From Lytechinus variegatus (taxonomy: Eukaryota; Echinodermata; Echinoidea; Temnopleuroida; Toxopneustidae), in the NCBI RefSeq assembly GCF_018143015.1, contig NC_054742.1:52709195-52773194 (forward strand): DNA of 64,000 nucleotides, written 5' to 3'. Under the pieces are notes generated by a model. The model was not told the DNA's origin and made no database searches. It saw only the letters and a list, made by a program, of their open reading frames with translations. Position 1 is the first letter of the stretch; each line of letters starts with the position of its first letter. Shown here one piece after another: positions 32,853-55,124 of this stretch. A program made the translations under genes and the position numbers.

Positions 32853-35800
32853 CTATCGCTTTTTCTTCTTCTTACTTATTTTCTTCTCGAATGGCAGAAG
32901 ATTTCCTTCATCACCTGTGAAAGCAGTCATCTTATTTTCAGGCCATGATGCCTTCACAGGACTGGTATCCTTTCTTCCGTCTTTCTCTGATTGCTGCGAT
33001 GTACTGGGAGAGTCTAAGTTGGGATCATTCTTGCCATACCTCTCTTTGAGTCTTTCCCTGATAAGCAGGCTTTTGATAAAGAGTTTCCAGTGGTTCATGG
33101 CTCTGGCTTCTCTTTTCTGTTAGAAAGGAAAGTTAAAAACAAAAATCAGATTCTGTATTTTGTAGAACAGTGTCGCTAAGGTGAGCACATAATACGCCCG
33201 TCTGTAACACAGAAAATGGAGCAATTGGTCAAGCAAGAAAAGTGGAAGATGGCTACTTCACCTTTGACCTTCTGACCTCAAAATCAATAGAATTGCTAGG
33301 ATCTATGCTAGTATCATACACACCAAACTACATGAGCCTAGGTTAAGTTCAACTAAAGTTATCGCATTACAAGGGCTTTAGAAGGATAAGATGAAAAGAT
33401 GTCACTGTGATCTTGACCTTTGATTTTTTTTTACCTCTAAATCGATAGGCTTGCTGGGATCAATGCTAGTATCATACACACCAAATTATATGAGGCTAGG
33501 TTAAGTTCAACCGAAGTTATCACGTTTAAGAATGCAGAAGGGTAAGATGAAAATACATCCCTGTGACCTTGACCTTTTGACCTCAAAATCAAAAGGCTTC
33601 CTGGGATCAATGCTAGTATCATACACACCAAATTATATAAGCCTAGGTTAAGTTCAACTTAAGTTATCGTGTTTATAAGGAGTGCAGAAGACTACAATGA
33701 AAATAGGTCACTGTGACTTCCACCTTTGACCTTTTGACATCAAAACCAATAGGCTTCCTGAGATCCATGCTAGTATCATACACACCAAATTAGAATTTTA
33801 ATTCGTCATGAGGACGAATTAGGTGATCTGTCTCTGATTTTCATGATCATGAATACAATCACCATGTTCATTGAGATCAAAACGATGCTCATATTGAAAA
33901 CTAAACTTTTATTATGAAAAGAACATGTTGAATACTCTTGAAAAGAGGGAAATGAGAATATGTGAAATACATGTAGGTGTAGGCGATACACATTGTACAT
34001 GTTATAGGCCTATTAAAAACGATTTTAACCTACTTTATTGTGCGATATTTGAACTAATATACCTTGTAATGGTGATTAAGGAACATTTGCGAAAAGTTGA
34101 AAAGAAAAAAAAAGAAAAAAAATTTATGTTCACTTTTGGGTTCGAACCCTCGACCTTAAGGATGCAAGTCTGATTCCTTACACATCGAGCTACACACTTC
34201 CCATAGACTTTACACATAAGCTACAACACATTGAAAACTGAACGAAAATTCACCAATATTTACAGAGTTAAAGTCAAATTTGCATAATTATAATGACGTC
34301 ATAAGTAGCAAAATGGGAATTTTGAGTTCCGACGCCATTTTGATGACGTCATGATAAAATTTCGGGTCAAATGTGACATGAAATCACATCTCCCATCCAT
34401 ACTCTATTCGAATATGAAAAAAAAATGGGGGTCAACGGACTACTTTAAAAGCTATAATGAATTTTGTATAGGCATGTTTTTGCACATATATTGTCTATGG
34501 TTAGTGCGCGCGTGCTGTAAACTTTGATGGAGGCTAATTCCTTTATTACTTGTCGTAGAAGGTTGATCAAGGTATCAAATTGTTCAGAATTATATTATCG
34601 GTGCATTGATGTGAAAAAAATGGCGATCCTATGTTTTATAGTGCCGTTACGCGCGAGAACGCGCGCGTAACCGTGCGCGCGCGCAAATTTTTGAAATGCT
34701 TAAAATGACCTGATTCGTACTGTTTTGGTCAAAAAGTGATTTTGAGCATTTTAAAATTTTGATGCGCGCGCACGTCGTGACCTTTACATGACCTTTGATG
34801 ACATGGGCAGTTGCCCCCTGACCTGAAGTTAATGTGATGTAAATATTGTTAATTTTTGATAATTGATAATGAAGATATGATTGATAATGTGATTTTACAA
34901 AATGGCGTCTAGATGACGTCATGATGACCTTTTGACCTTGAACTTGCTTTATACACATCACATGATAAGTCCCCATATCTGATGATATTTTGAAGATAAT
35001 TGATGATGTAGATTTGGAGATTTTGTGCTCACAAGAAGAGGTGGGAAAATAAAAATGAAGAAATAAATAAATAAAAAATAAAATTCGTACGAAATTAATA
35101 GTTGATCTGTCAATTGACAGATCACCTAATTATATGAGCCTAGGTTAAGTTCAACTGAAGTTATCGCATTTACAAGGACTACAGGAGGGTACAATGAAAA
35201 TAGGTCACTGTGACCTTGACCTTTGGATCTCAAAATCAATAGGCATCCTTGGATCCATGCTAGTATTATACATTCCAAATTATATGAGCCTCGTTTAAGT
35301 TAAACTGAAGTTATCGCGTTTACAAGGAAAAGTTAAAGGACGGACAGACAGACGGACGGATAGACACCGAGCGTGATACCATAAAGATGGGCGTATCATC
35401 AAGATGGGCGTATAAAAAAGAATCATAAATTGTTGATAAATCTAAGGACAAAAACTGATCGATTCTAAACTAGAGAGAAAATTTATACCTTCACAATTGC
35501 CAAAAAATAAATGTCATAAACATTGGTGTTATGAAGTAAAGGAAATACATATACAACATACTTATGCCTCCCCCCCCAAAAAAAAAACATAAAAACAAAC
35601 AGTTTATGCCCATGCCCAAATTCAGGAGCTACAACAGTTCCTGTGTGAGCAGAATCATGGTTTGTGTCCACTTGGTCTAATATCAAAAAGACTAATTTCA
35701 ATAATACCACTATATTTGGGCAACTGTGTGGACAGTTGTGTTTTGGAAGACTAATCATTGTCTAATACCCATTTCATCTTTGTCTCATAATAAAACTGTC

Positions 35801-38800
35801 TAGCTGCCACTCTGTATAATTAGTTTTCTTCTTAACTACTTGGTCATTGCCAGTTTGTCTAATAAGATAGTAATGTTAGACCAAGTGGGAATTATATAAA
35901 ATGGGCATTGTCTGACTAAAAAGTAGATGTAATCGGAAATGGGCTGCACAGGAATGAAAGGAAAACTACTGGTGTGGGGAAAATAATAATGGTGAATATT
36001 CTGGTTATTTTCATGTTATTTAGAAAAATATCATAGCAAAACAGCCCACTGCAGAGGACTGCTTCTCAGATGCCCTTGCATCTAAATTATGAGTGTAGCC
36101 CTCGTCATTTCTGTGAGTAGTGCATGTGATTCCCAGTAGACATGAGTAAATTCCTTACCATTATTGTCTCCCCAAATCTCACAGGATATGTTTATTTTTT
36201 TTGTGCATTACAATTAATATAAATTACAATTTAAAATCATATCTTGAAACTAGCTAAAATCATTGGGATTATACCATTTGGTAAAGTCTGAATGCGACCA
36301 AGTGGCAATTGACTGCATTGGTTGACAAGATCATGGCTTCAACTTAAATTAAATCTGAATAAACCAGGGATGGACAAACACACTTGTGGCAGGCAGATAT
36401 ATAAAAGGTTGATGAAAGACCACTTTACCTCTTTTTCTTTCTTCTCTTGTTCTGCTCTATCTTCTTCCCAAGCGGCAACCAACACCTCTGCATGCTCCTC
36501 ACAGACAACAAATCCATCCATTCTATATCACAATGGAAACACGTGAAAGAAAAGAAAGAAATGACTTAATGAATTTAAAAATCAAGATTTGAGTACAGCA
36601 TTTCAAGAAATTGGGTGGTTGTTTCATAAGTCAGCTACATAGGGATATATCATAAATCACACAGAAGAGCAACAAGTCTTGCATTAAGTCATTTGTAACT
36701 TTAGGACAACTTTATAACACACTCATCATTTATATAAATAGTACCCATTTTGGCACAGACAAATGCTTGAACATTCTACAGGTGACCTTGTCCTTTACAG
36801 TACATGTTAGTTCTACACTTTTTATTGTGGTCTAGTTCCCACTGTCCATTGCACAAGGGTGAATGATAAACCTGGGAGGTACTCCTCTTACTTTGAAAAC
36901 TGTCAATATGCTTGTGCAACGATCCCACTTTGGCAAGTGCACCTTTCAACTTTAATTACTCTTCCTTTCCTCTGGTAAGTCTTCCTCTTATTTTGCTTCC
37001 TGCTAATATCATGAACTTTTCACCTCTTTTAATTTCCAGTTTTATAATTGATGACTACCCTTAAATCTGCAATATCAATTCCATTCCATCCTTTACATAA
37101 ATGTGAATTTCACTTCCTGATAATTTCATTTCCTGATAATCATAAATTGATGTTCCCTTTGTGGCATTGATATTTGACACCTTTTTTTAAAATACAACTT
37201 CTCTCTTCCCTTTTACTATACTACAAACAGAGACAACAAGGTAATGGGAGGGGGGTGACAATGTGACCAGCAGGTGAATCCATTTGCATTCTAAATGAGA
37301 GGAAATAGGAATAACACCATTTATGATCCAACCCTCTCTTTCTCCTACTTATAAGTAATATTGCCTGCTTCTCTTCTTTTTTCTTAAATCAAGAGTAAAA
37401 ATCAACAAAGGTGGGACTCCCTACCCATCCATCCCATCTACAGCTGACAGTATATTCAAGACTTACACAGGGTGGATGTAACCCGAATGGAAGTCCCATC
37501 CCATCATGGCGGGGGCGCAATCTATATCAAGCTTACGGGCAATCTTGTTCAATCCAGCAACTATATCAACATTGACAAGAAAAGCAGAAAGAAGTGAATG
37601 AAAAGTTTGAAATGTGATTTTGGACTTACACAGGATGGTTGAATCCAGAGTGAAAATCCCAGCCCATCATAGCTGGAGCACAATCGATATCCAGCTTCCG
37701 AGCTACTTTGTTCAGACCAGGAACTAGGGGAGAATATAAATATTTGAGGATGAATAGTGATGAGTGTAGAACTGCATTTATTTTTTCTCTCAAATAACTA
37801 CCTTTGACCTTATCTCCGCGAAAATACACATCATAACAATAGAGTACTGAAGTGATGACATCACAAAAAAATTGTTTTTAATTACAGCATTTTTTATACC
37901 ATATTTGGTAGCGCATCATGAAAAAACCCCACTACCAAAATTTGGTGAGAATCGGTCCATGGGGGCCTGGTTCCTAACTTTTAAAACCAGGCCAAGAATA
38001 CTTTTACTTCAATGGGGCTAATTATGTATTCATGAGATCATATCTTGGGGGCCCCATTGACCGATTCTCACCAAATTGGGTTTTGAGGGTTTTTCATCAT
38101 GCTCTACCACAATATGGTATAAAAAGCGCTGAAATGCAAAAAGTCAAAATTGATAATGTCACAATTCGGTACTCTATATGCCACAATATCAGTCATCATC
38201 GGTGTATAGCCAACCGGTGTGTTGGCTCAGTTAGTAGAGCGTCCGTCTCACAACCAGGAGGCCATGGGTTCAAATGCATCGTCAGACAAAAAAAATGTTA
38301 AAAGATGGGAGTTGCTGCTACCCTGTTTGGCGTTCAACAATTAAAGGGATAGAGCCTTATTGATCTGGTGCTGCTCAGTGGCTGCCGGGCCCACGATCAA
38401 TTGGGCAAAACAAATTTTCAGAGTATTTCATTTCTGGTCTCTATTTCGAACAATATATGAATTTTAGATTTTTGGATCCCTTGGCATTAGACAATTTGGA
38501 ATCATATAATGAGGGATGAAGGAATAATCACTTATTTCCAAGCTGGAAGATCTCCCCAATAGCTATTTTTCAATGTGTCTCAACCAAGATACCCATCATT
38601 ACATACTCCTTCATTAGTTATCATCTATCAATCCACCTCTCCATGAAGAGGGATGGAGAATGTGGTAACCGACTGCAATACTTACTCTTGAGATGAACAG
38701 TGCCAGCAGGCAACATGGTAGGTTTGAAGAGTTCCACGTTTCCATACTCATTACGAGGAACCTTGCCATCGACTGCAGGAGGGGGGATGTAATCTTCAAC

Positions 38801-41800
38801 TTGCCACTCCCCAAATATTCCCAGGGTACTCTCCTCTGTCTTGATCATACCTATTCCTTTTTTCTGTAATAATAATAAGTCTTTTCATATTGAGCAGCTG
38901 ATATATGCATATAATTTATTAGTCTTATATGGTATTATGTGAACATATTCACTTTATAGGCTACATGGGTTAATTAGGTCGTGAAGTTTTACACACTCAT
39001 TTGGAGTCAAAACTTTACATACACCTAGGTATCCTGCATGAATTGTTCACTTGTAAAAATTATCCATTTACAGAACTATTTGTGCTACCAATACAAAGTT
39101 GGTACCAAACTAAAAAACTGAAGAACTATTCGTGCTCTTTCATCCATCTCATACCATAAATGGAGGGTAAGCAGCAAAGTGCACTGGTGAATGTTTCATA
39201 AAGAGCGACTTTAAGAATGACTGGTGATCCTTTCTTGTGGTAGATGATATTTGCCATTAATGTTCATTTAGTGCATAAGAAGGGTTCACCAGTTGTTCTT
39301 AAAGCCACTCTTAACATACGAACAGCTCTATAAAATGCTCCCCTGGGTTGCTAAACCAATAACACCTACTAGACCAAATATATCCCCTAAACATCAGGCT
39401 TTGGGTGTATCAATATGCACCTATTTTCACATGGCACTACTCACTCTTATTTTAATGATATCAAGCTTCCTTACCCATTTAGGTCTTGGTTTGACCATCT
39501 TATATGGTTTCTCATTGATGCGGATGGCTTTTCCTTCCTTCATCCATGTCTCTCTTGTGTGCAACTGTTATGCATACAAACAAATATACAAACATTAAAG
39601 GGGAAGTTCACCCTGACAAAAAGTTTATTGTAAAAATAGCAGAAAAAATAATAAAAATATTGCCGAAGGTTTGAGAAAAATTCATCAAATAATTAAAAAG
39701 TTATTAGAATTTCAATTATTTGATTTGTGACGTCATATGCGAGCAGCGTTCCTACACAGCGAATGGTAAAAAATCAATGAAATGTCATTTTCTCAGAAAA
39801 TTGAAAATGGTTTTCACTGTACGTTTTGTATATCAATAGACAAATCACTTCACACCCGATCATGAATAGAAAGCAAAATTAAGTCATCAGGAACCATACA
39901 AAATTTGAAATTTGTGCATTTTGTATTACATAACACATGGGGCAGCTGCTCGTTTATGACGTCACAAATCCATAATTTTGAAATCTAATAACTTTCTTAC
40001 TCTTTAACGGATTTTCCTCAAACATTCACCAATATTTTTTACTATTTTTTCTGCTATTTTTACAACAAAGTTTTCTTCAGGGTGAACTTCCCCTTTAATA
40101 ACTAGGTTAGTGTATCTACTTCATTTAACCCTACATAGCTAGGGTTATTTTGAAATTGCATACTGGAAGCACTTATTATTCCCCCCAGATCATGCATGTC
40201 AGCCACAACATAATCTACAATAATGCATTGTCATTTGTTCCAAAATAATTTAAATGTCTTTTGAATTAATTAACTATGCTACTTAATGTATGCATATAAT
40301 CAGAAGTATAATACCCCCCCCCCCCCATCAAGTGGCTAGATATGGTTAATGACACTTTAGGGGCCCATTGTAGAAATAGTTGCATTTGAGATCAAATTCA
40401 TTAAAACATGGGGGCATGTAGATTCAAAGATCAGCAGCATCTTTTAATTCAAATTTCATTAAAAAAAGTTAAAAACAAAGATATATGTATACAATGAAGA
40501 AAACAATAAAATTAATAAGAAAACACATAAGATACCCTACTTGTGAAAAAAAAAACTACATTCAATAAAAATCTAGACAAAATATAAAAAGTTTAAAAGC
40601 TTTTTTTAAATGAACTTGAGCATGTTTATGATTTCACATATAAATATACTTTATTTTTTTTATAACCAATTAATATTGCAGCATTAGAGTATCTAACTAT
40701 TGACAATATTTAACTTTGAAAGCTAACAAGGATTTAATACTTACTGTGTGAACACACTCCCTGGAATAAACTGCTTCTCCCTTGCAATATCCTATTACAG
40801 CAGCTGATTCTGGGTACAAAGCTTCAAATTTCAGTAAATGTCTCTTCAAGGCATATCTACATCAATCAAGACCATGAATTATATTATTACAGTAACAGTA
40901 TTTAAAATGTACAAATAAGCAAAAAAAAAAACGTATTCAATGGTTATTTGACAAATATAAGAGATGTATTATATCAGCAAGAAATTTCAATCAACGAATC
41001 TAAAAAGAATTTAAAGTTTTTTTACTTCATCTCATTTTATACACTGTTGGAAGTACATATTGTACAATAACTACAATGAATCCTTCAATTTCATCACAAA
41101 GTCACAAGTTTTTTTTTTAAATGAACAATACACAAAAAATTGCATATTACTCTTTGAGAAAACAATAAGTGTTGCATTATGGAAATACTCACAGTGGGTG
41201 ATTCTTGTATTCTGCTACAGATGTAGGAAGCGGCTTGCTTGTGAGGTTACCTGAGGAAAAATAAGAAAGAATTAAAGTAGCATGTCTTTTCTTTATTGCA
41301 AGAAATATTAGCTAAAACTACAAAGTGCTATCAAAGAAACTGAAAAGTGATTCATTTTGGTATGCGATGCTGATGACCAAGTGTGGTCTTAAATAATATA
41401 GCACTTGGTGTAATTTTTTGCAAATTATGTGGGTGTACTGTGAAGAATGAATCCACTTCTACTTTGTATCAATACTATACATAAAAGCATATTAAAGGAA
41501 AACTGTACTTAAATAAAAACATGCAAATTAATAGAGGTTTGTAAAACTCTACTTTTGAAGAAATACAGGCTTCTACAGTTCCCTTTTTTTAAATCTATCT
41601 CCCTCAGAGGTTGTGAACGTGATTTGGAATACAAAAATGCCTCAAGATGAAATTTATTTTACAAACAATCAACAAAGAGAAGAGATAATGAAATATTTTA
41701 AAATAAGAAATGAAAATTCCTCCACATACTCTGAACATCTAAATCCTCTTTCCTGTCTCTATCCTTGTTACTCTGGTAAGGTTTCAAGGTTTCTTCCCAC

Positions 41801-47800: not shown

Positions 47801-50800
47801 TACATAGTTTTCGTGGATCAACTTACCCCAGAAGATGGCTCAAACTTACCCCATATATGGGGCAAGTTGAGCCATTTGACATTGTTTTTTTCGAAGGTCA
47901 CGATGACTTTCAGTGTGGGGATAGAAAGTTATATATAGGTGGAAAATATTTCAGAAGAATTAAATTTCAAGGCAAGGTACTTATTTCGACAAGATTTATT
48001 AATCATATCAATTCGAACATGCAAAAAGCAAAAACTGTCACAACTTACTCCGCCTTCCCCTATCTATTCTAGTCAATGTCTAATTTTGGCTACCTTGGGC
48101 AATTATCTGACACTAATTACTTTACAAGTATAATATGAGGAAATTCAAATCTGTATTGCTTTCCTTACCTTGTGTAGCAAGAGTTGTCTCTCTTTGTTAT
48201 ATTTATTGACTTGCCATTGGAAATAATTTGCCCAATTATATTCTCTTTTCCTAAATATGAAGAGAAATTCAAAGGGGAAAAAGAAAACACTAAAATTAAT
48301 CAAGATGAATGTGAATATTTACTTTAACCTCTATGCTATGGTCACAAATACCTTTATGAACACCTAACAAATGATTTCAAACAATTGCTATGTAAAAAAA
48401 ATGTTCTTATGGCCATCGTAAAGGTATCTGTGACCGTAGCATAACTTCTTATAGGAATTTCAAATAAAAGAACACCCACACAGACAGAAGTGTCTTTTTT
48501 CACACACAATATTGGGAATTTTATTTTTGCGTTCTAAAATCTAGATTTTCTTCAAAATGATTAGGAGTCGTAACTCTGCATGTGAACAAGAGAAATACAT
48601 TTGATTACTCTATTCCCTGCGATTAGGTCAATGTACAATAAAAATATGTTATGCTAACAAACTCTCAGAAGCCTATCAATGTTGATGCAACTCTTTAGCC
48701 ACTTAAAATGATTGTCATAAATACAAATTAACACTCATGTGACAATTATTTGAATTTTCTGTACTGGTATTCATAAGTGGGATTTCCACTGACGTAAATT
48801 AATAAAATCTATCTTGATACTTTAGATTTTTTTTTACAAGCAAGAACACACAAAAAGTGCAATCTAAAGAAGCTTACCAAAAAATACAAGAAATCATTTT
48901 GGGATAGGGTTATTTGGGAAAGAGCAGGATAATTTGTAAAGATGTAGGTGTTGAAATGTTACACCACACACCTCTAGACTATTCATCTCATCATTTAAAT
49001 CCCAATTCATTTCATTGGAATCCATTAGATGTACTATATGCAGGGCAAGATTGACAAACTATTGCAATTGCCAATTAGCATGATGATTCTGTCTGTCTGA
49101 ATGGTTGAAAACATCATTGGATTTGGATCGTGATCAAAATCAAATCATTTCATTTTAATGAATGTTATTTGTTGTTTTAATGCATTCTTACTTTTTCTTT
49201 CCTGCTTGGGATTTTCCTGGTAGATCAATATCAATTTCCAGGGATACTTCCTGATCATTAGCTTTCTTGGGACTTGGCGTTAACATTGGTTCTCCTATTT
49301 CATTTATTGGTGTGTCTGGAAGAGAAATAAAGAATAGTCCGCATTGAATTAATCGTTAATAATGCTTTCAGCAAAGTGTCAAGTGTACATAACAATCTAT
49401 TAAAATCAAATAACTTGTTTATTCAGAGCCAAACCACATACATTCTATGTTCAATATAAAAAGAAAACAAAACAAGTCACTTCTGGGTTGTTTAGCATTG
49501 AAAATGAGACATGCAATTACTGCCACTGTAACAATCACACTAACATTATAGACTTACTAAAATGTGTGAACAAAACTTAGGAAACTTATGAATTTGATTT
49601 TCCAAAGGATAAATTTTGACACATATGTCTTAATATTCTAATTCATGCAGAGCATGTCTCCAAATATGCATGCATACATATCATAACTTGTTATAGCAAT
49701 ATCATTCTAATTATTATTCAAATTTTTATAACAAATGCCTCATCATTTATCAAGTAAGATTGCTGAATCCCAAATATCAATTTTTATGTCAATTTCTGTA
49801 TCAATCGTTATCTCACCTTCCACTTCCTCCCACTCTGATTCATCAGATGAAATATCAGCATCCTCCTCCTTTACCTCTATCTCCATCTTCTTTTCCTCCT
49901 TCTTAGTCGCCATCTTTCTTTTAGATGCTTCTCTTCCTGCTCTCTTAACAGTATCAGCTGAGGAACTCTTTGACCTGGTTGACATTTTCCTCTTTTTGGC
50001 AGGGCTGCTGTGTTCACTTCCACCATCTCCATCCCCTCTCACATCTTTCTTGACAGTACCCATCGAGGAGTTTTTCACTCCAGTGGAAAGCTTTCTCTTC
50101 TTTGTGAGATTTTTAGTGCTACCTTCTCGATCAGATTGACCTTGTGTTAAGCCTCTAGCGTTATCTGAGTTTACTACAGATCTATTTGATGTATTAGGAT
50201 GGCTTTTCGTGTTACCGCTTTTCTCTGACTCAGCAGGCAAGACACTGGCATTGCTATTTTTCTTTCTTTGTTTCTCACTCTTTTCCTCTCTTATGGTAGT
50301 TTTTTTACCTCTTGTAACATCATCTGCTGCATCACGTTGACCACCTTTCTTATCTCTTCTTCCGCTTTCTGCTTTTATGACTGGATTCTTTGATGCATTA
50401 GAATGGCTCTTAGTGCTATCTCTTGTCTTTGACATAGCAGGTAAGACTTTCGGATCAACATCTTTCTTGCTCTGTTTCTCATTTTTCCTTTCCTTACTTA
50501 TGGTAGCATTTTTACCTCTGGTACAACCATTTTTCACATCAGGATGACCTCCCTTAAAGCCCCCTTTTCTGCTTTCAAGCATTACAACTGGTTTCTTTGC
50601 AGTAATTCTTTCAAGCATTACAACAGGTTTCTTTGCTGTATTAGAAGTGGGCAAGATGTTGGTTTTAACATCTTTCTTGGTCTGCTTCTCATTTTTCTTT
50701 TCTTCACTGGAAGCTTGCTCAACTTTGGCAATCCTCTTCTTCAGCTGCTTTTTTGCTTTCTCAGGAGGACTTTCTTCAAAATCACTTTCATCTTTTTCCA

Positions 50801-52031
50801 AAATGTCACTTTCATTGAAAGTGGTGGACTTGACCACAGACCTTGCATCACTTACACGAAGCCTTCTCTTCCTCAAGTTTTTAATTTTTGAAAGGTGTTT
50901 CGAATCAGGACTGCTACACTCATCAAAATAATCTGATGTAACCACGGGTGATGTTACCACTGGTTTTGCAACATTCTTTTTTCGAGGTGTTAATTTCCCA
51001 TGATCACTATCTAGATCAACATCATCAAAATACTGTGATGTTACCATCGGTTTTACATCAGCCTCTTTTTCCTGAGGCGAGACTTCCTCATGAGCACCTC
51101 CTAGCTCATCATCTTCAAAATACTGTGATCTAATCACAGATTTCACATCAGTCTTTTCTACCCGAGGTATTGATTCCTTTTGATTATCTTCTACCTCGAC
51201 ATCATCAAACAAGGATTTATTGTTCCCCGGTTGAGAGCCCTGAAAATCTGGTATATCATCTAAATCATCAAACATTGACTTTGTTGTCGGCTGAGATGGC
51301 AATACAAGAGAAGAGTCAGTCCCATCTGTTTTCATCTCCTTCAATTTTGATATTTGAGATGTGGCACTTCTAATTTCAGATTTATCAGGGATTGTCTTTA
51401 ATGACGAAGGTTTTGATTCGCCCAAATCTGATTCATCTTCTGAAGAAGAATCACTGTCACTTAATGAAAGAAACTGTTCTTGTGAAGCTTGGCAGACGTA
51501 CCTTTCCTCAAAGATTTTCTCACTTTGTCTAACAGGAACTGCTGTATGTTCCTTAGTTACTTGTTTGCTTTTATCTTTGGATTTCATTTTTCCATGATTT
51601 TTCTGCCTTGTATTTGATGTTCTCTTCTGCAATGAAGGTGTCGCTTCAAAGTCATCTTCATCCTCTTCATCATCATATTCTGAATCCAAACTAACGTAAT
51701 CATCATCATCTTCTGATTCATTCTCCTCAATGCCTTCTGTTCTCTTTGCATCTTCCTGCATAGTTGACATTTTCTTGACAGCTTGTAATTTTGCACTCCT
51801 GCCTCTCCTTGGTCCATTCTGACTAATTTCAACAGGTGCTACCCTTTCATCCTGGCTTAAAGTGTTCTGACTGTCTTTTACCTTTGACCTCTCTTTGACC
51901 TTTGTATCTTTTTCATTTGTTTTTACTCTACTCTTGACTTGACCTCTGACCTTAAGAATAGGCTCAGAGTTTGTTTTCCTGCTGAGTTCACTGGATGTCT
52001 TCACTGGACCAGATACCTTGCGTTTGGCCAT
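32853..52031 (-). CDS. XPC: XPC, DNA damage sensor of nucleotide excision repair
   Basis: Coding exons in transcript order: 52031-49817, 49315-49192, 48250-48169, 46913-46756, 46264-46144, 45330-45238, 44999-43964, 43255-43112, 41882-41730, 41250-41193, 40856-40745, 39564-39475, 38863-38686, then either 37723-37630 or 37560-37467, then 36522-36429 and 33116-32853. All borders are AG/GT and phases agree, giving 5016 bp (1671 aa). Human XPC has 940 aa. Order: disordered N terminus (about 1-740) ending in the acidic SEWEEVE motif; Rad4 transglutaminase-like fold, split by a Ser/Lys-rich disordered insert encoded by 44999-43964, as in human; conserved [41 protein letters not shown]; beta-hairpin domains with [13 protein letters not shown] and ARKLDIDC; C-terminal helix [11 protein letters not shown] and a terminal basic tail. 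XPC with RAD23 and centrin binds lesions and recruits TFIIH. The start matches human (MAKRKVSG against MARKRAAG). Confidence 0.95.
33793..35130. mobile_element. Helitron-like insertion inside the minisatellite
   Basis: Neighbouring units give the empty site CACCAAAT|TATATGAGCC, so the insertion limits are clear to a few bases. Subterminal inverted repeats AATTAGGTGATCTGTC (about 33817-33832) and its complement (35116-35131) occur with terminal hairpins: AATTCGTC-ATGAG-GACGAATT on the left and GATCTGTCAATTGACAGATC near the right, followed by CACCTAA|T. A hairpin followed by CTAA at an A|T site is the 3' signature of rolling-circle elements. No Rep/helicase frame is present. An alternative is a DNA MITE with an AATTA duplication. 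Confidence 0.5.
34128..34205 (-). repeat. tRNA-like head (SINE-type) within the insertion
   Basis: On the minus strand GTGTAGCTCGATGTGTAAGG resembles an A box and GAGGGTTCGAACCC is a B-box/T-arm. The acceptor stem does not close well, and a T-rich tail follows, so this is a SINE fragment rather than a tRNA gene. Confidence 0.45.
35625..35905. repeat. Foldback-type repeat of GTCTAAT words
   Basis: Words such as CCACTTGGTCTAATATC, TTGTCTAATACCCATTTC, CCAGTTTGTCTAATAAG and TTAGACCAAGTGG recur in both orientations. The vocabulary is that of the larger foldback at 42530-42965, so the two are probably relatives. Confidence 0.45.
36429..36522 (-). CDS. XPC: XPC exon following the duplicated exons
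   Basis: This exon reads [20 protein letters not shown], then [11 protein letters not shown]. It matches the human segment [20 protein letters not shown]. Its first base completes the Val codon begun by either alternative exon. The length (94 bp) equals that of both by coincidence of phase. It ends at GAG|GTAAAG and joins [10 protein letters not shown] at 33116. Confidence 0.92.
37467..37560 (-). CDS. XPC: XPC alternative exon B (second copy)
   Basis: This 94-bp exon is preceded by TTGATATAG and followed by GTAAGT. It encodes the first part of beta-hairpin domain 3: (I)[19 protein letters not shown], then [12 protein letters not shown]. It is the second copy in transcript order. It differs from exon A at 23 of 94 bases but at only 4 residues, so both copies have been kept under purifying selection. 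Splicing both exons together reads into TAA after ten codons. Confidence 0.88.
37630..37723 (-). CDS. XPC: XPC alternative exon A (first copy)
   Basis: This 94-bp exon is preceded by CCCCTAG and followed by GTAAGT. It encodes (I)[19 protein letters not shown], then [12 protein letters not shown]. The corresponding human stretch contains GFDFHGG, whose two Phe belong to the hairpin that binds flipped-out nucleotides. Here the first is Trp and the second is kept. Phase (1 in, 2 out) is identical to exon B, and only 69 bases separate the two. Confidence 0.9.
37840..38177. mobile_element. Foldback MITE upstream of XPC exon A
   Basis: The two halves are inverted copies. Left: AGAGTACTGAAGTGATGACA, TTTTTATACCATATTTGGTAG, TTTGGTGAGAATCGGTCCATG. 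Right, complemented: AGAGTACCGAATTGTGACA, TTTTTATACCATATTGTGGTAG, TTTGGTGAGAATCGGTCAATG. Arms are about 140 bases around a short centre. It sits 117 bases from exon A in the intron transcript and would form a strong hairpin. Confidence 0.75.
38214..38430 (+). repeat. tRNA-derived SINE
   Basis: The head has an A box (TGGCTCAGTTAGTAGAGCG) and a B box (GGGTTCAAATGC), with a Val-like CTCACAA anticodon loop but weak stems. It is followed by a unique body (GATGGGAGTTGCTGCTACC, GGTGCTGCTCAGTGGCTGCC). The acceptor stem is not closed, so I call a SINE, not a tRNA gene. It lies in an XPC intron. Confidence 0.7.
39185..39335. mobile_element. Short inverted-repeat MITE (family of 20.6 kb)
   Basis: TTTCATAAAGAGCGACTTTAAG at left is complementary to CTTAAAGCCACTCTTAA near the right, and GACTGGTGATCC pairs with GGTTCACCAGT. 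It matches 20580-20712 along its length. Confidence 0.6.
39597..40099. mobile_element. Palindromic MITE, TIR AAAGGGGAAGTTCACCCT
   Basis: The left end AAAGGGGAAGTTCACCCTG and the right end AGGGTGAACTTCCCCTTT are near-perfect inverted repeats flanked by TTA/TAA. Internal arms also pair (CTTTTTAATT... against ...TAATAACTTTCTTA). The core contains GGGGCAGCTGCTCGTTTATG, which recurs in a decayed copy at 58755-58870. Size is 503 bp. It lies in an XPC intron between exons 39475-39564 and 40745-40856. Confidence 0.8.
42530..42965. repeat. Foldback repeat of short GTCTAAT/GTCCA modules
   Basis: The left half repeats 20-25-bp modules such as CCAGTTTGTCCAATTCCC, ATCATTTGGTCTACCA and CCAGTTGGTCCAATAGCC. 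The right half repeats their complements (TTAGACCAACTGG, GGTAGACCATGTGATGAG). The two halves are imperfectly inverted around about 42750. It lies in an XPC intron. Confidence 0.65.
43508..43786 (-). repeat. tRNA-derived SINE, full length
   Basis: On the minus strand: A box GTGGCTCAGTGGATAAGTC, B box GGGGTTCAAATCCC, body with GGCAAGGCGTTTATCTACA and GGTACCCGGTAGGAAG, and a 3' end GCGCTATATAAATGTTGCAT followed by (ATT)n. Related 3' halves occur at 63689-63860 and, weakly, 46340-46440. It lies between two XPC exons. Confidence 0.8.
43964..44999 (-). CDS. XPC: XPC large exon encoding the insert in the transglutaminase fold
   Basis: This 1036-bp exon encodes 345 residues rich in Ser, Lys, Thr and acidic runs ([31 protein letters not shown]). 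It ends [17 protein letters not shown] before SDLWLEV of the next exon. Human XPC has a similarly long, low-complexity exon at the same place. Antisense frames (for example 44326-44817 plus) are shadows. Confidence 0.9.
45455..45605. mobile_element. MITE copy (GGTAACTACCAT family)
   Basis: GTTACTATTATGGTAACTTTGCC and GATTGGCTGTTGAGCATTGTTACC are the complement of the copies at 30430-30600 and 62395-62520. Confidence 0.5.
46340..46440 (-). repeat. Decayed SINE 3' fragment
   Basis: AACAATAATATT, TATATAGTGCTTATCACGTAAG and CACCCCAGCCATTG resemble the complement of the SINE tail at 43508-43600. Confidence 0.35.
47201..48060. mobile_element. DNA element with GGGGAAGGCGGGGTAAGTTG termini
   Basis: The left end GGGGAAGGCGGGGTAAGTTG and the complement of the right end (GGGGAAGGCGGAGTAAGTTG) differ at one position. 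The word GGGGTAAGTTGAGCCA/GGGGCAAGTTGAGCCA is repeated inside near 47222, 47572, 47596 and 47862, with complements near 47820. At 860 bp with no real frame, it is non-autonomous. It lies in an XPC intron. Confidence 0.75.
49817..52031 (-). CDS. XPC: XPC first coding exon: expanded disordered N terminus
   Basis: This exon is one open frame of 738 codons, charged and low in hydrophobics. Human XPC has about 150-190 residues before the equivalent point. From the start it contains an acidic block ([20 protein letters not shown]), five acidic-aromatic motifs between about 51285 and 50905, three copies of a roughly 69-residue unit between about 50700 and 50140, two KKRK(L/M)ST basic repeats, and the SEWEEVE motif at the splice junction (E-G|gtgaga). 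Plus-strand frames opposite it are shadows. Confidence 0.9.
50140..50700 (-). repeat. Three in-frame 69-70-codon repeats in XPC
   Basis: [18 protein letters not shown] and KSEKQRKKN start units about 207 and 210 bases apart. Each unit continues with a LP..S segment, a K.PV(V/I)..E segment, KGG..D and TRGK..TI. Lengths are multiples of three, so the frame is preserved. Confidence 0.75.
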
Positions 52032-53018: not shown

Positions 53019-55124
53019 GAATCCATGACACATGCTCCGGCGACGATTGCTCCGGTGACAAATGCTCCCCAAAATGCGACATTTGCTCCGCGACATTTGC
53101 TCCTCGACATTTGCTCCGCCGACATTTGCTCCGCCGACATTTGCTCCGCCGATATTTGCTCCGCCGACTGTTGCTCCGCCGAAATTTGCTCCGCCGACTG
53201 TTGCTCCGCCGACATTTGCTCCGCCGACAGTTGCTCCGCCGACAGTTGCTCCGCCGACGGTTACTCCGCCGACAGTTGCTCCACCGACAATTGCTCCACA
53301 TTTAGCGACAAATGCTCCGGCGACAAATGCTACCTGAACGACACATGCTCCGGCGACAATTGCTCCGCCAATATTTGCTCCGCATGTAGGGACAGTTGCT
53401 CCACCGACATTTGCTCCGCATGTAGGGACAAATGCTCCGCCAATAATTGCTCCGTCCACAATTGCTCCATCGACAGTTTCTCGGCATGTTGCTTGAAAAA
53501 AATAAAGACCTAAAAAAAATACCTGCGACAAATGCTCCTCGAATAACAATTGCTCTGCTCACGATTGCTCTACCGACAGTTACTAGGCCTAAAAGAAGAC
53601 AAGACACTTGCTCTGACGAAAATATTTGTTACATCCTTTTGCGTTACATACTTTTTTGTATTGTTTTGTTTTTCCATTCAAGTTGTTGTGCCACTTTATA
53701 TCATAGGCGGATCCAGGGGCGAGGGGCCCGGGTCCCCCCTATTGGCAGAGCAATAAAAAAGAGAATAAGGGGGAAAAAGAAGAAAAAAATAGGGAAAAGA
53801 GAGAAAAAAGAAGAGGAAGACAAGTGAAAGACTTGGAAAATAAAAAGAATCTTTCATATTTCACTATATAAAATTTTCGCTCGCACTTCGTGCTCGCATT
53901 GCCTGTTTGATTTTCATTATTATCTTGTTCAATATGGAGCTTAAATATCACGTTTGGAAGTCAATATGTAAAAGATATTTCGCCGCGGATATCGAACTTT
54001 CATTATTTTGTTTGATTTACAAATTGATTGTTTTAAAGTGATTTTTAAAAATGTTAGTTTTACGATCTGAACATTAATATTTTCTGCTCGTGCTGCACGC
54101 TTGCAAATGTTAACTTATCAGTTACTTTTATTAATTTCGTGTATTCCATACAGTTTTCAAAGTATCCCTTTGCAGGTCTGATAGTCAAAACGTATCAGCT
54201 AGCGCTGCACGCTCGCATTTTTATTGGCAAGTAATGTATGTCTCAATATTGATTATACAACAAGCTTCTTAAAATCCACATTTTGTGATAGTCTATCAAA
54301 AGTTTCGGCTCGCGATTTGCGCTTGCATTAATTGTTAAAATGTATTCACTCATTCATCTTATTCATAATTACCAAAAGTTCTTGAAATGTCCGGTTTTCA
54401 GGCCATGATTTCGTGCCCTACTTAGGCATATTAGCTTAAGAGATAGAAGATGGGAGAGGTTGTAAAAGAAATAAGGAACAGATGTCATTAATGTAGAGAG
54501 AGAGAAAAAAATTTTAGTACAGGAGAGAGGGACGGGGGAGAAAGTGGTTTTCAAGGAAAGAAAGGGAGAAATAATCGAGATAAAAGCGCTGATGGGAAAT
54601 TTAAGTTCAGCCAAACTATTTCTTTTCGCTGAGCAATTCAATTAGGAATGTTAAAAAAGTATAGAATAATGATGAAAACCATACAGCTTTGGAAAAGAAG
54701 CGTTGTTAGTTTTACAAAAAAAAAAAAAAATCAGTGGATAGCATTTTCGGCAGAGCTATTATCAGAGGAGCATTTGTCCCTACATGCGGAGCAAATGTCG
54801 GCGGAGCAACTGTCCCTTCATGCGGAGCAATTGTCGCCGGAGCATGTGTCGTTCGGGTAGCATTTATCGCCGGAGCATTTGTCGCTAAATGTGGAGCAAC
54901 TGTCGGCGGAGTAACTGTCGGCGGAGCAATTGTCGGTGGAGCAACTGTCGGCGGAGCAGCTGTCGGCGGAGCAACAGTCGGCGGAGCAAATATCGGCGGA
55001 GCAAATGTCGGCGGAGCAAATGTCGACGGAGCAAATGTCGAGGAGCAAATGTCGCGGAGCAAATGTCGCATTTTGGGGAGCATTTGTTACCGGAGCAATC
55101 GTCGCCGGAGCATGTGTCGGGTTA
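53019..55124. mobile_element. TU-like foldback transposon with 15-bp repeat arms
   Basis: Two inverted arms (53025-about 53585 and about 54755-55118) consist of tandem 15-bp units, TTTGCTCCGCCGACA and its complement. The outer 70 bases of both arms match base for base apart from a few changes, including the irregular GATTGCTCCGG and CCCCAAAATGCGACATT spacers. CCGTAAGCTC occurs just outside both ends (53009-53018 and 55125-55134), a likely 10-bp target duplication. The 1.2-kb centre carries no transposase frame. Sea urchin TU elements are described as having outer inverted domains of about 15-bp tandem repeats; the match is architectural and from memory. All long frames here, on both strands, translate the repeat as five-residue periods (CSADI, FAPPT, GGANV). 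Confidence 0.8.
53870..54330. repeat. Four spaced GCTCG...GCTTGCATT motifs in the foldback centre
   Basis: Related words occur at about 53877 (TCGCTCGCACTTCGTGCTCGC), 54088 (GCTCGTGCTGCACGCTTGCA), 54200 (TAGCGCTGCACGCTCGCATT) and 54306 (CGGCTCGCGATTTGCGCTTG). Spacing is about 100-210 bases in AT-rich sequence. This looks like a decayed repeat inserted in the element. Meaning unknown. Confidence 0.5.

Follow-up and report, generated by a model that had tools for sequence, protein, structure and literature searches.

The XPC gene of the sea urchin Lytechinus variegatus carries what appears to be an old tandem duplication of a single coding exon, exon 14, of which only one copy (14a or 14b) would enter each productive messenger, giving two forms of the damage sensor that would differ modestly and whose ratio would be set by splicing. 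We put the probability of this reading at about 0.8. Both copies lie in the window, that is the whole stretch of 64,000 nucleotides that was analysed, and they code for a part of the protein that reaches the tip of beta-hairpin 3.

The XPC gene and its duplicated exon

The spliced model with exon 14b is identical across 1671 aa to the NCBI record 'DNA repair protein complementing XP-C cells homolog isoform X2 [Lytechinus variegatus]', and because of this exact match the gene is XPC, the source is L. variegatus and copy b is the one present in the annotated isoform. There are 16 coding exons with 14b, or 17 when 14a is included (Table 1). The Pfam listing of L. variegatus XPC comprises PF03835, PF10403, PF10404 and PF10405, and the protein has the Transglutaminase-like Rad4 domain together with BHD1-3, as members of the XPC/Rad4 family do. 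A search of the genome (869,567,369 bases in 33 contigs, only the best candidates being scored) with the 348 C-terminal residues as query yielded 12 matches. Ten were exons of the XPC locus and two stood at E >5, so that no other XPC locus was found above noise. Retrocopies of XPC, which could reveal the exon used by germline messengers, were not found in this whole-genome search with the C-terminal query.

Other parts of the gene deserve a mention. The first coding exon (49817-52031) holds 2215 coding bases, and its product is an N-terminal region that is long and charged; XPC measures 1671 aa in this urchin vs 940 in the human chain. Exon 12 offers two good donors that are in frame with each other and separated by 30 nt (39445-39475, scores 7.9 and 6.7). 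Isoform X2 uses the donor at 39475, and the alternative one would add 10 residues.

Table 1. Features of the XPC locus, in window positions
Feature	Positions	Strand	Basis or remark
XPC coding region, start to stop codon	32853..52031	-	Model with 14b identical to isoform X2; stop at 32853
Exon 13, upstream exon shared by both forms; its last base opens a codon	38686..38863	-	Spliced model identical to isoform X2
Exon 14a, 94 bp, 30-residue peptide	37630..37723	-	BHD_3 30.6 bits; splice sites; 29/30 as in Diadema
Intron between 14a and 14b, 69 nt	37561..37629	-	Pyrimidine-rich middle
Exon 14b, 94 bp, 30-residue peptide	37467..37560	-	BHD_3 28.9 bits; in L. variegatus X2 and L. pictus XPC
Exon 15, common downstream exon	36429..36522	-	Spliced model identical to isoform X2

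The two exons are equal in length and in phases, code for the same stretch of BHD_3, and are each preceded by AG and directly followed by GTAAGTC. The coordinates and splice sites confirm the preliminary description, which had reported two 94-bp exons of the same phase, 69 bases apart and with good splice sites. Our recount also returned its figures of 23 mismatches in 94 bases, mostly silent, and 4 differing residues (P/A, V/I, F/Y and N/I). Taken singly, both exon peptides score above the Pfam gathering cut-off of BHD_3 (27 bits), and between 36400 and 38900 no direct repeat >19 nt was found other than this pair (104 nt at 78%), for which reasons we rejected a chance repeat. By our own scoring, given as percentile of AG sites, b has the weaker acceptor (84.7th vs 93.2nd for a), though b is the annotated form.

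Exon 15 starts with the last base of a codon, and because of the exon phases a full-length protein needs exactly one of the two copies. Either 14a or 14b alone keeps the reading frame. With both joined, translation meets a TAA stop 8 residues past the shared V, and with neither the frame shifts and a stop follows in exon 16. Both outcomes had been anticipated, an early TAA and a frameshift respectively, although the 'ten codons' given for the distance to the TAA was a miscount. The exons are adjacent, homologous and of the same length and phase, the frame is broken when both are in or both are out, and both copies appear to be constrained as protein (see below). On these sequence features, the view that the XPC pair is a fresh case in a known class, that of tandem duplicated exclusive exons, is well supported, and the earlier claim of an apparently mutually exclusive tandem duplicate in XPC is supported by phases and homology together with the exact match to isoform X2. 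No published report of a duplicated or mutually exclusive XPC exon was found among the titles and abstract openings listed, in a search with most subscription journals outside its scope.

The swapped residues and the hairpin tip

By sequence mapping on the human chain 28jm_I (940 residues), the choice of exon would swap the equivalents of residues 777, 782, 803 and 804. The W and F of the urchin GWDF correspond to human 797 and 799, which agrees with the earlier statement that the segment holds the hairpin turn of BHD3. The aligned hairpin of Rad4 (754-residue chain) reads F597-K-F599-E-R-G-S603-T-V605-K-P and, with F599 as anchor of the alignment, the F/Y and N/I sites come to lie at about Rad4 603 and 604, inside the tip, in a register that is approximate because Rad4 has one extra residue ahead of the Pro. 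These last two sites map to the tip of beta-hairpin 3, the part that occupies the DNA once the duplex is opened. Human XPC and yeast Rad4 have the same BHD3 and hairpin, and the equivalent of F799/F599 is kept in the urchin; the position of human F797 differs, being Trp in both urchin copies (codons 37659-37661 and 37496-37498) and also in 48 of 259 aligned relatives. We know of no duplicate exon of this kind in human or yeast XPC/Rad4.

In the parts of the structural literature that we draw on, Rad4 residues 599-605 are described as going into the duplex and filling the gap left by the flipped-out nucleotides (PMC4354021). For a simulated Rad4 mutant without hairpin 2, Arg601 and Ser603 at the tip are described as bonding the partner guanine, and Phe599 as a guide for hairpin insertion (PMC7708039). 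In the deletion chain 6ubf seven hairpin residues of Rad4 are missing and one Phe is kept before PVLSG; this deletion is one residue off the stated range 599-605, and both ranges include 603 and 604.

Residue frequencies come from 275 fetched relatives, 274 of them aligned, taken from the listed parts of 1180, 886 and 176 matches and mostly vertebrates. The commoner residue is Pro at the P/A site (210/268, with Ala in 11/268), Val at the V/I site (195/266, with Ile in 23/266) and Tyr at the F/Y site (141/257, with Phe in 42/257). At the N/I site the 257 aligned relatives have Ser in 202 cases, Cys in 19, Asn in 5 and Ile in 2, both of the latter being Lytechinus b forms, so that copy b puts a hydrophobic Ile where most aligned relatives have Ser. 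We infer that an Ile at the tip may change lesion reading. The two forms of XPC might then differ modestly in speed or in lesion type when holding DNA open, and a splicing choice dependent on tissue or stage would set their ratio.

The strongest competing reading accepts exclusive use and takes both proteins to be functionally equal, the duplication mattering for splicing control only or not at all. We regard this as a serious possibility that we would nonetheless bet against. Three of the four differences (P/A, V/I and F/Y) are mild, and Phe and Tyr are both common at the F/Y site. On the other hand, the rarity of the tip Ile in a sample dominated by vertebrates, its restriction there to the Lytechinus b forms and the preponderance of Ser argue for a difference, as does the conservation of the b peptide at 30/30 between the two Lytechinus species.

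Age, use and exclusion of the two copies

Of the differences between copies a and b, 19 are silent, for 21.2 silent sites, and only 4 are replacements, for 74.8 replacement sites. Among the conserved codons with silent freedom 18 of 25 differ, when 14.7 would be expected for random codon choice under the gene's own usage, and silent sites between the copies are thus saturated. With substitutions placed at random, none of 20000 neutral simulations gave as few as 4 residue changes (mean 14.8). Saturated silent sites with no more than 4 replaced residues mean that the pair is old and that both copies were kept for their protein. If only one copy is let free, 12 neutral substitutions stay within 4 changes and free of stops in 0.17% of trials, a share that rises to 9.8% with 8 substitutions and 41% with 6. 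One copy might therefore have fallen out of use recently.

The database proteins of both Lytechinus species, as far as cluster representatives go, carry b. The XPC of L. pictus has the b peptide (30/30), bears no isoform label and stands for a cluster of 2 members; the lack of a label would fit an annotation of b alone in that species. The isoform X2 record of L. variegatus also represents a cluster of 2 members, which together with the name X2 suggests a further isoform. In the urchin Diadema setosum (202/246 residues identical to L. variegatus XPC over exons 8-13), XPC isoform X1 matches the a peptide at 29/30 and b at 25/30. The hemichordates Ptychodera and Glandiceps have PGLNRV...GFSHP and Saccoglossus has PGLNRV...GYCHP; the brittle star Amphiura, with VGLNRI...GFCHP, is mixed. 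On these comparisons copy a probably represents the ancestral form, from which b is derived. These sequences come from three protein searches. The full-length query (best 120 of 886) included three urchins, namely L. variegatus, L. pictus and Diadema. Among the matches listed for the search of about 381-1213 aa (best 120 of 1180) none was named as an urchin, and among those listed for a 235-residue query (matches of about 130-411 aa, best 120 of 176) many bore no name, the best identity in E-value order was 64% and none looked like an urchin. S. purpuratus was not named among the matches listed in any of the three.

It might be argued from these records that only b is used in Lytechinus, a being a recently silenced ancestral exon still awaiting decay, and the Diadema type of copy a and the 41% of simulations in which 6 neutral substitutions stay invisible would fit. 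We consider this improbable. The silent saturation points to a long coexistence of the copies, yet the frame and splice sites of a are intact and a differs from Diadema at 1 residue of 30, and the X2 name and two-member cluster of the L. variegatus protein do not favour it either. We infer instead that a and b are used exclusively in Lytechinus.

How the exclusion would be achieved is suggested by the anatomy of the intervening intron, much shorter at 69 nt than the next shortest XPC intron (238 nt). No AG occurs between its donor and the terminal AG, and AG-to-AG gaps of at least 62 nt make up only 37 of the 1265 in the gene region. A simple motif score alone picks out candidate branch-point adenines at donor distances of 15, 22, 31 and 35 nt; a further branch-point-like A stands 5 nt from the acceptor, too close to work. 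A steric threshold of about 50 nt between donor and branch point is described for OGDH, where branch points at 25-41 nt enforce exclusion (in the portion of PMC7969005 considered here). The XPC intron looks alike in its anatomy, with its putative branch points below that limit. Joining of a to b would thus be hindered, since 69 nt would leave no room for both splicing complexes at once and any usable branch point would lie too near the donor of a. Should a slip occur, the joined messenger would bear the premature stop and probably decay.

Given that stop, shortly into copy b, the second exon could also be conceived as an unproductive-splicing switch, in which the transcript with both exons is destroyed and the XPC level lowered. 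This seems very unlikely, as an extra copy serving that end would need no protein constraint, at odds with the ratio of replacements to silent differences given above, and the short intron looks unsuited to a-b joining.

No RNA structure that would enforce the choice was found in the folding and inverted repeats of this one species: a 321-nt stretch over the pair has z +1.19 (89 of 100 shuffled versions fold equally well or better), and none of the 5 inverted repeats in 36400-38900 overlaps the two exons or the 69 nt between them. The intron directly before 14a contains nested inverted repeats (37839-38177, arm lengths 46, 31 and 16 nt, complementarity 80-88%) that look like a foldback mobile element. 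Next to them, positions 38219-38300 (+ strand) hold what we take, from A-box-like and B-box-like words recognised by eye, to resemble a tRNA-derived repeat; ARAGORN and Rfam gave no tRNA or Rfam features within the window, this segment included. Elsewhere in the window two arrays of a 15-bp unit (53077-53419 and 54767-55119), about 1.3 kb apart, are mutual reverse complements, and 446-785 contains two adjoining arrays, each with a 42-bp unit, that seem reverse-complementary in their consensus units.

An assembly artefact or allelic duplication, with nothing beyond adjacency in its favour, was rejected as next to inconceivable in view of the 23 differences in 94 bases, the unrelated flanking introns (19/60 and 20/60 bases identical) and the presence of a-type and b-type exons in the proteins of other species.

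Comparison with known exclusive exons and meaning for XPC

Exons 4a and 4b of OGDH are the closest parallel, going by the part of that study used here (PMC7969005): an old tandem duplicate of a coding exon with a short intervening intron, branch points below about 50 nt from the donor, a long AG-free zone, and isoforms that differ at a functional loop, as the XPC pair would at its hairpin. The systems differ in that OGDH is a vertebrate metabolic enzyme and XPC a sensor for DNA repair, here in a sea urchin, in that the OGDH intron measures 118-131 nt in birds and mammals vs 69 nt, and in that branch points were mapped experimentally in OGDH and are guessed from motifs only in XPC (PMC7969005). 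A survey of human homologous exons describes, in the sections on which we rely, pairs that resemble the XPC one in being old and in having mostly conservative replacements; it covers human genes, and its main text has 0 occurrences of 'DNA repair'.

Under the favoured reading of one copy per messenger, the gene holds a natural experiment, with two tips in the very part of XPC that decides DNA opening, and the randomised silent sites speak for the age of this pair of tips. A further step, which we advance tentatively and would not count on, is that they represent two regulated XPC sensors with gap-filling tips Phe-Asn and Tyr-Ile, whose lesion preference or DNA-opening kinetics would be changed by a splicing switch. 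We know of no other DNA-damage sensor that has its reading finger under exon choice. If both copies are used, lesion selectivity could be tested with two natural proteins four residues apart, and damage sensing would prove to be tunable by splicing.
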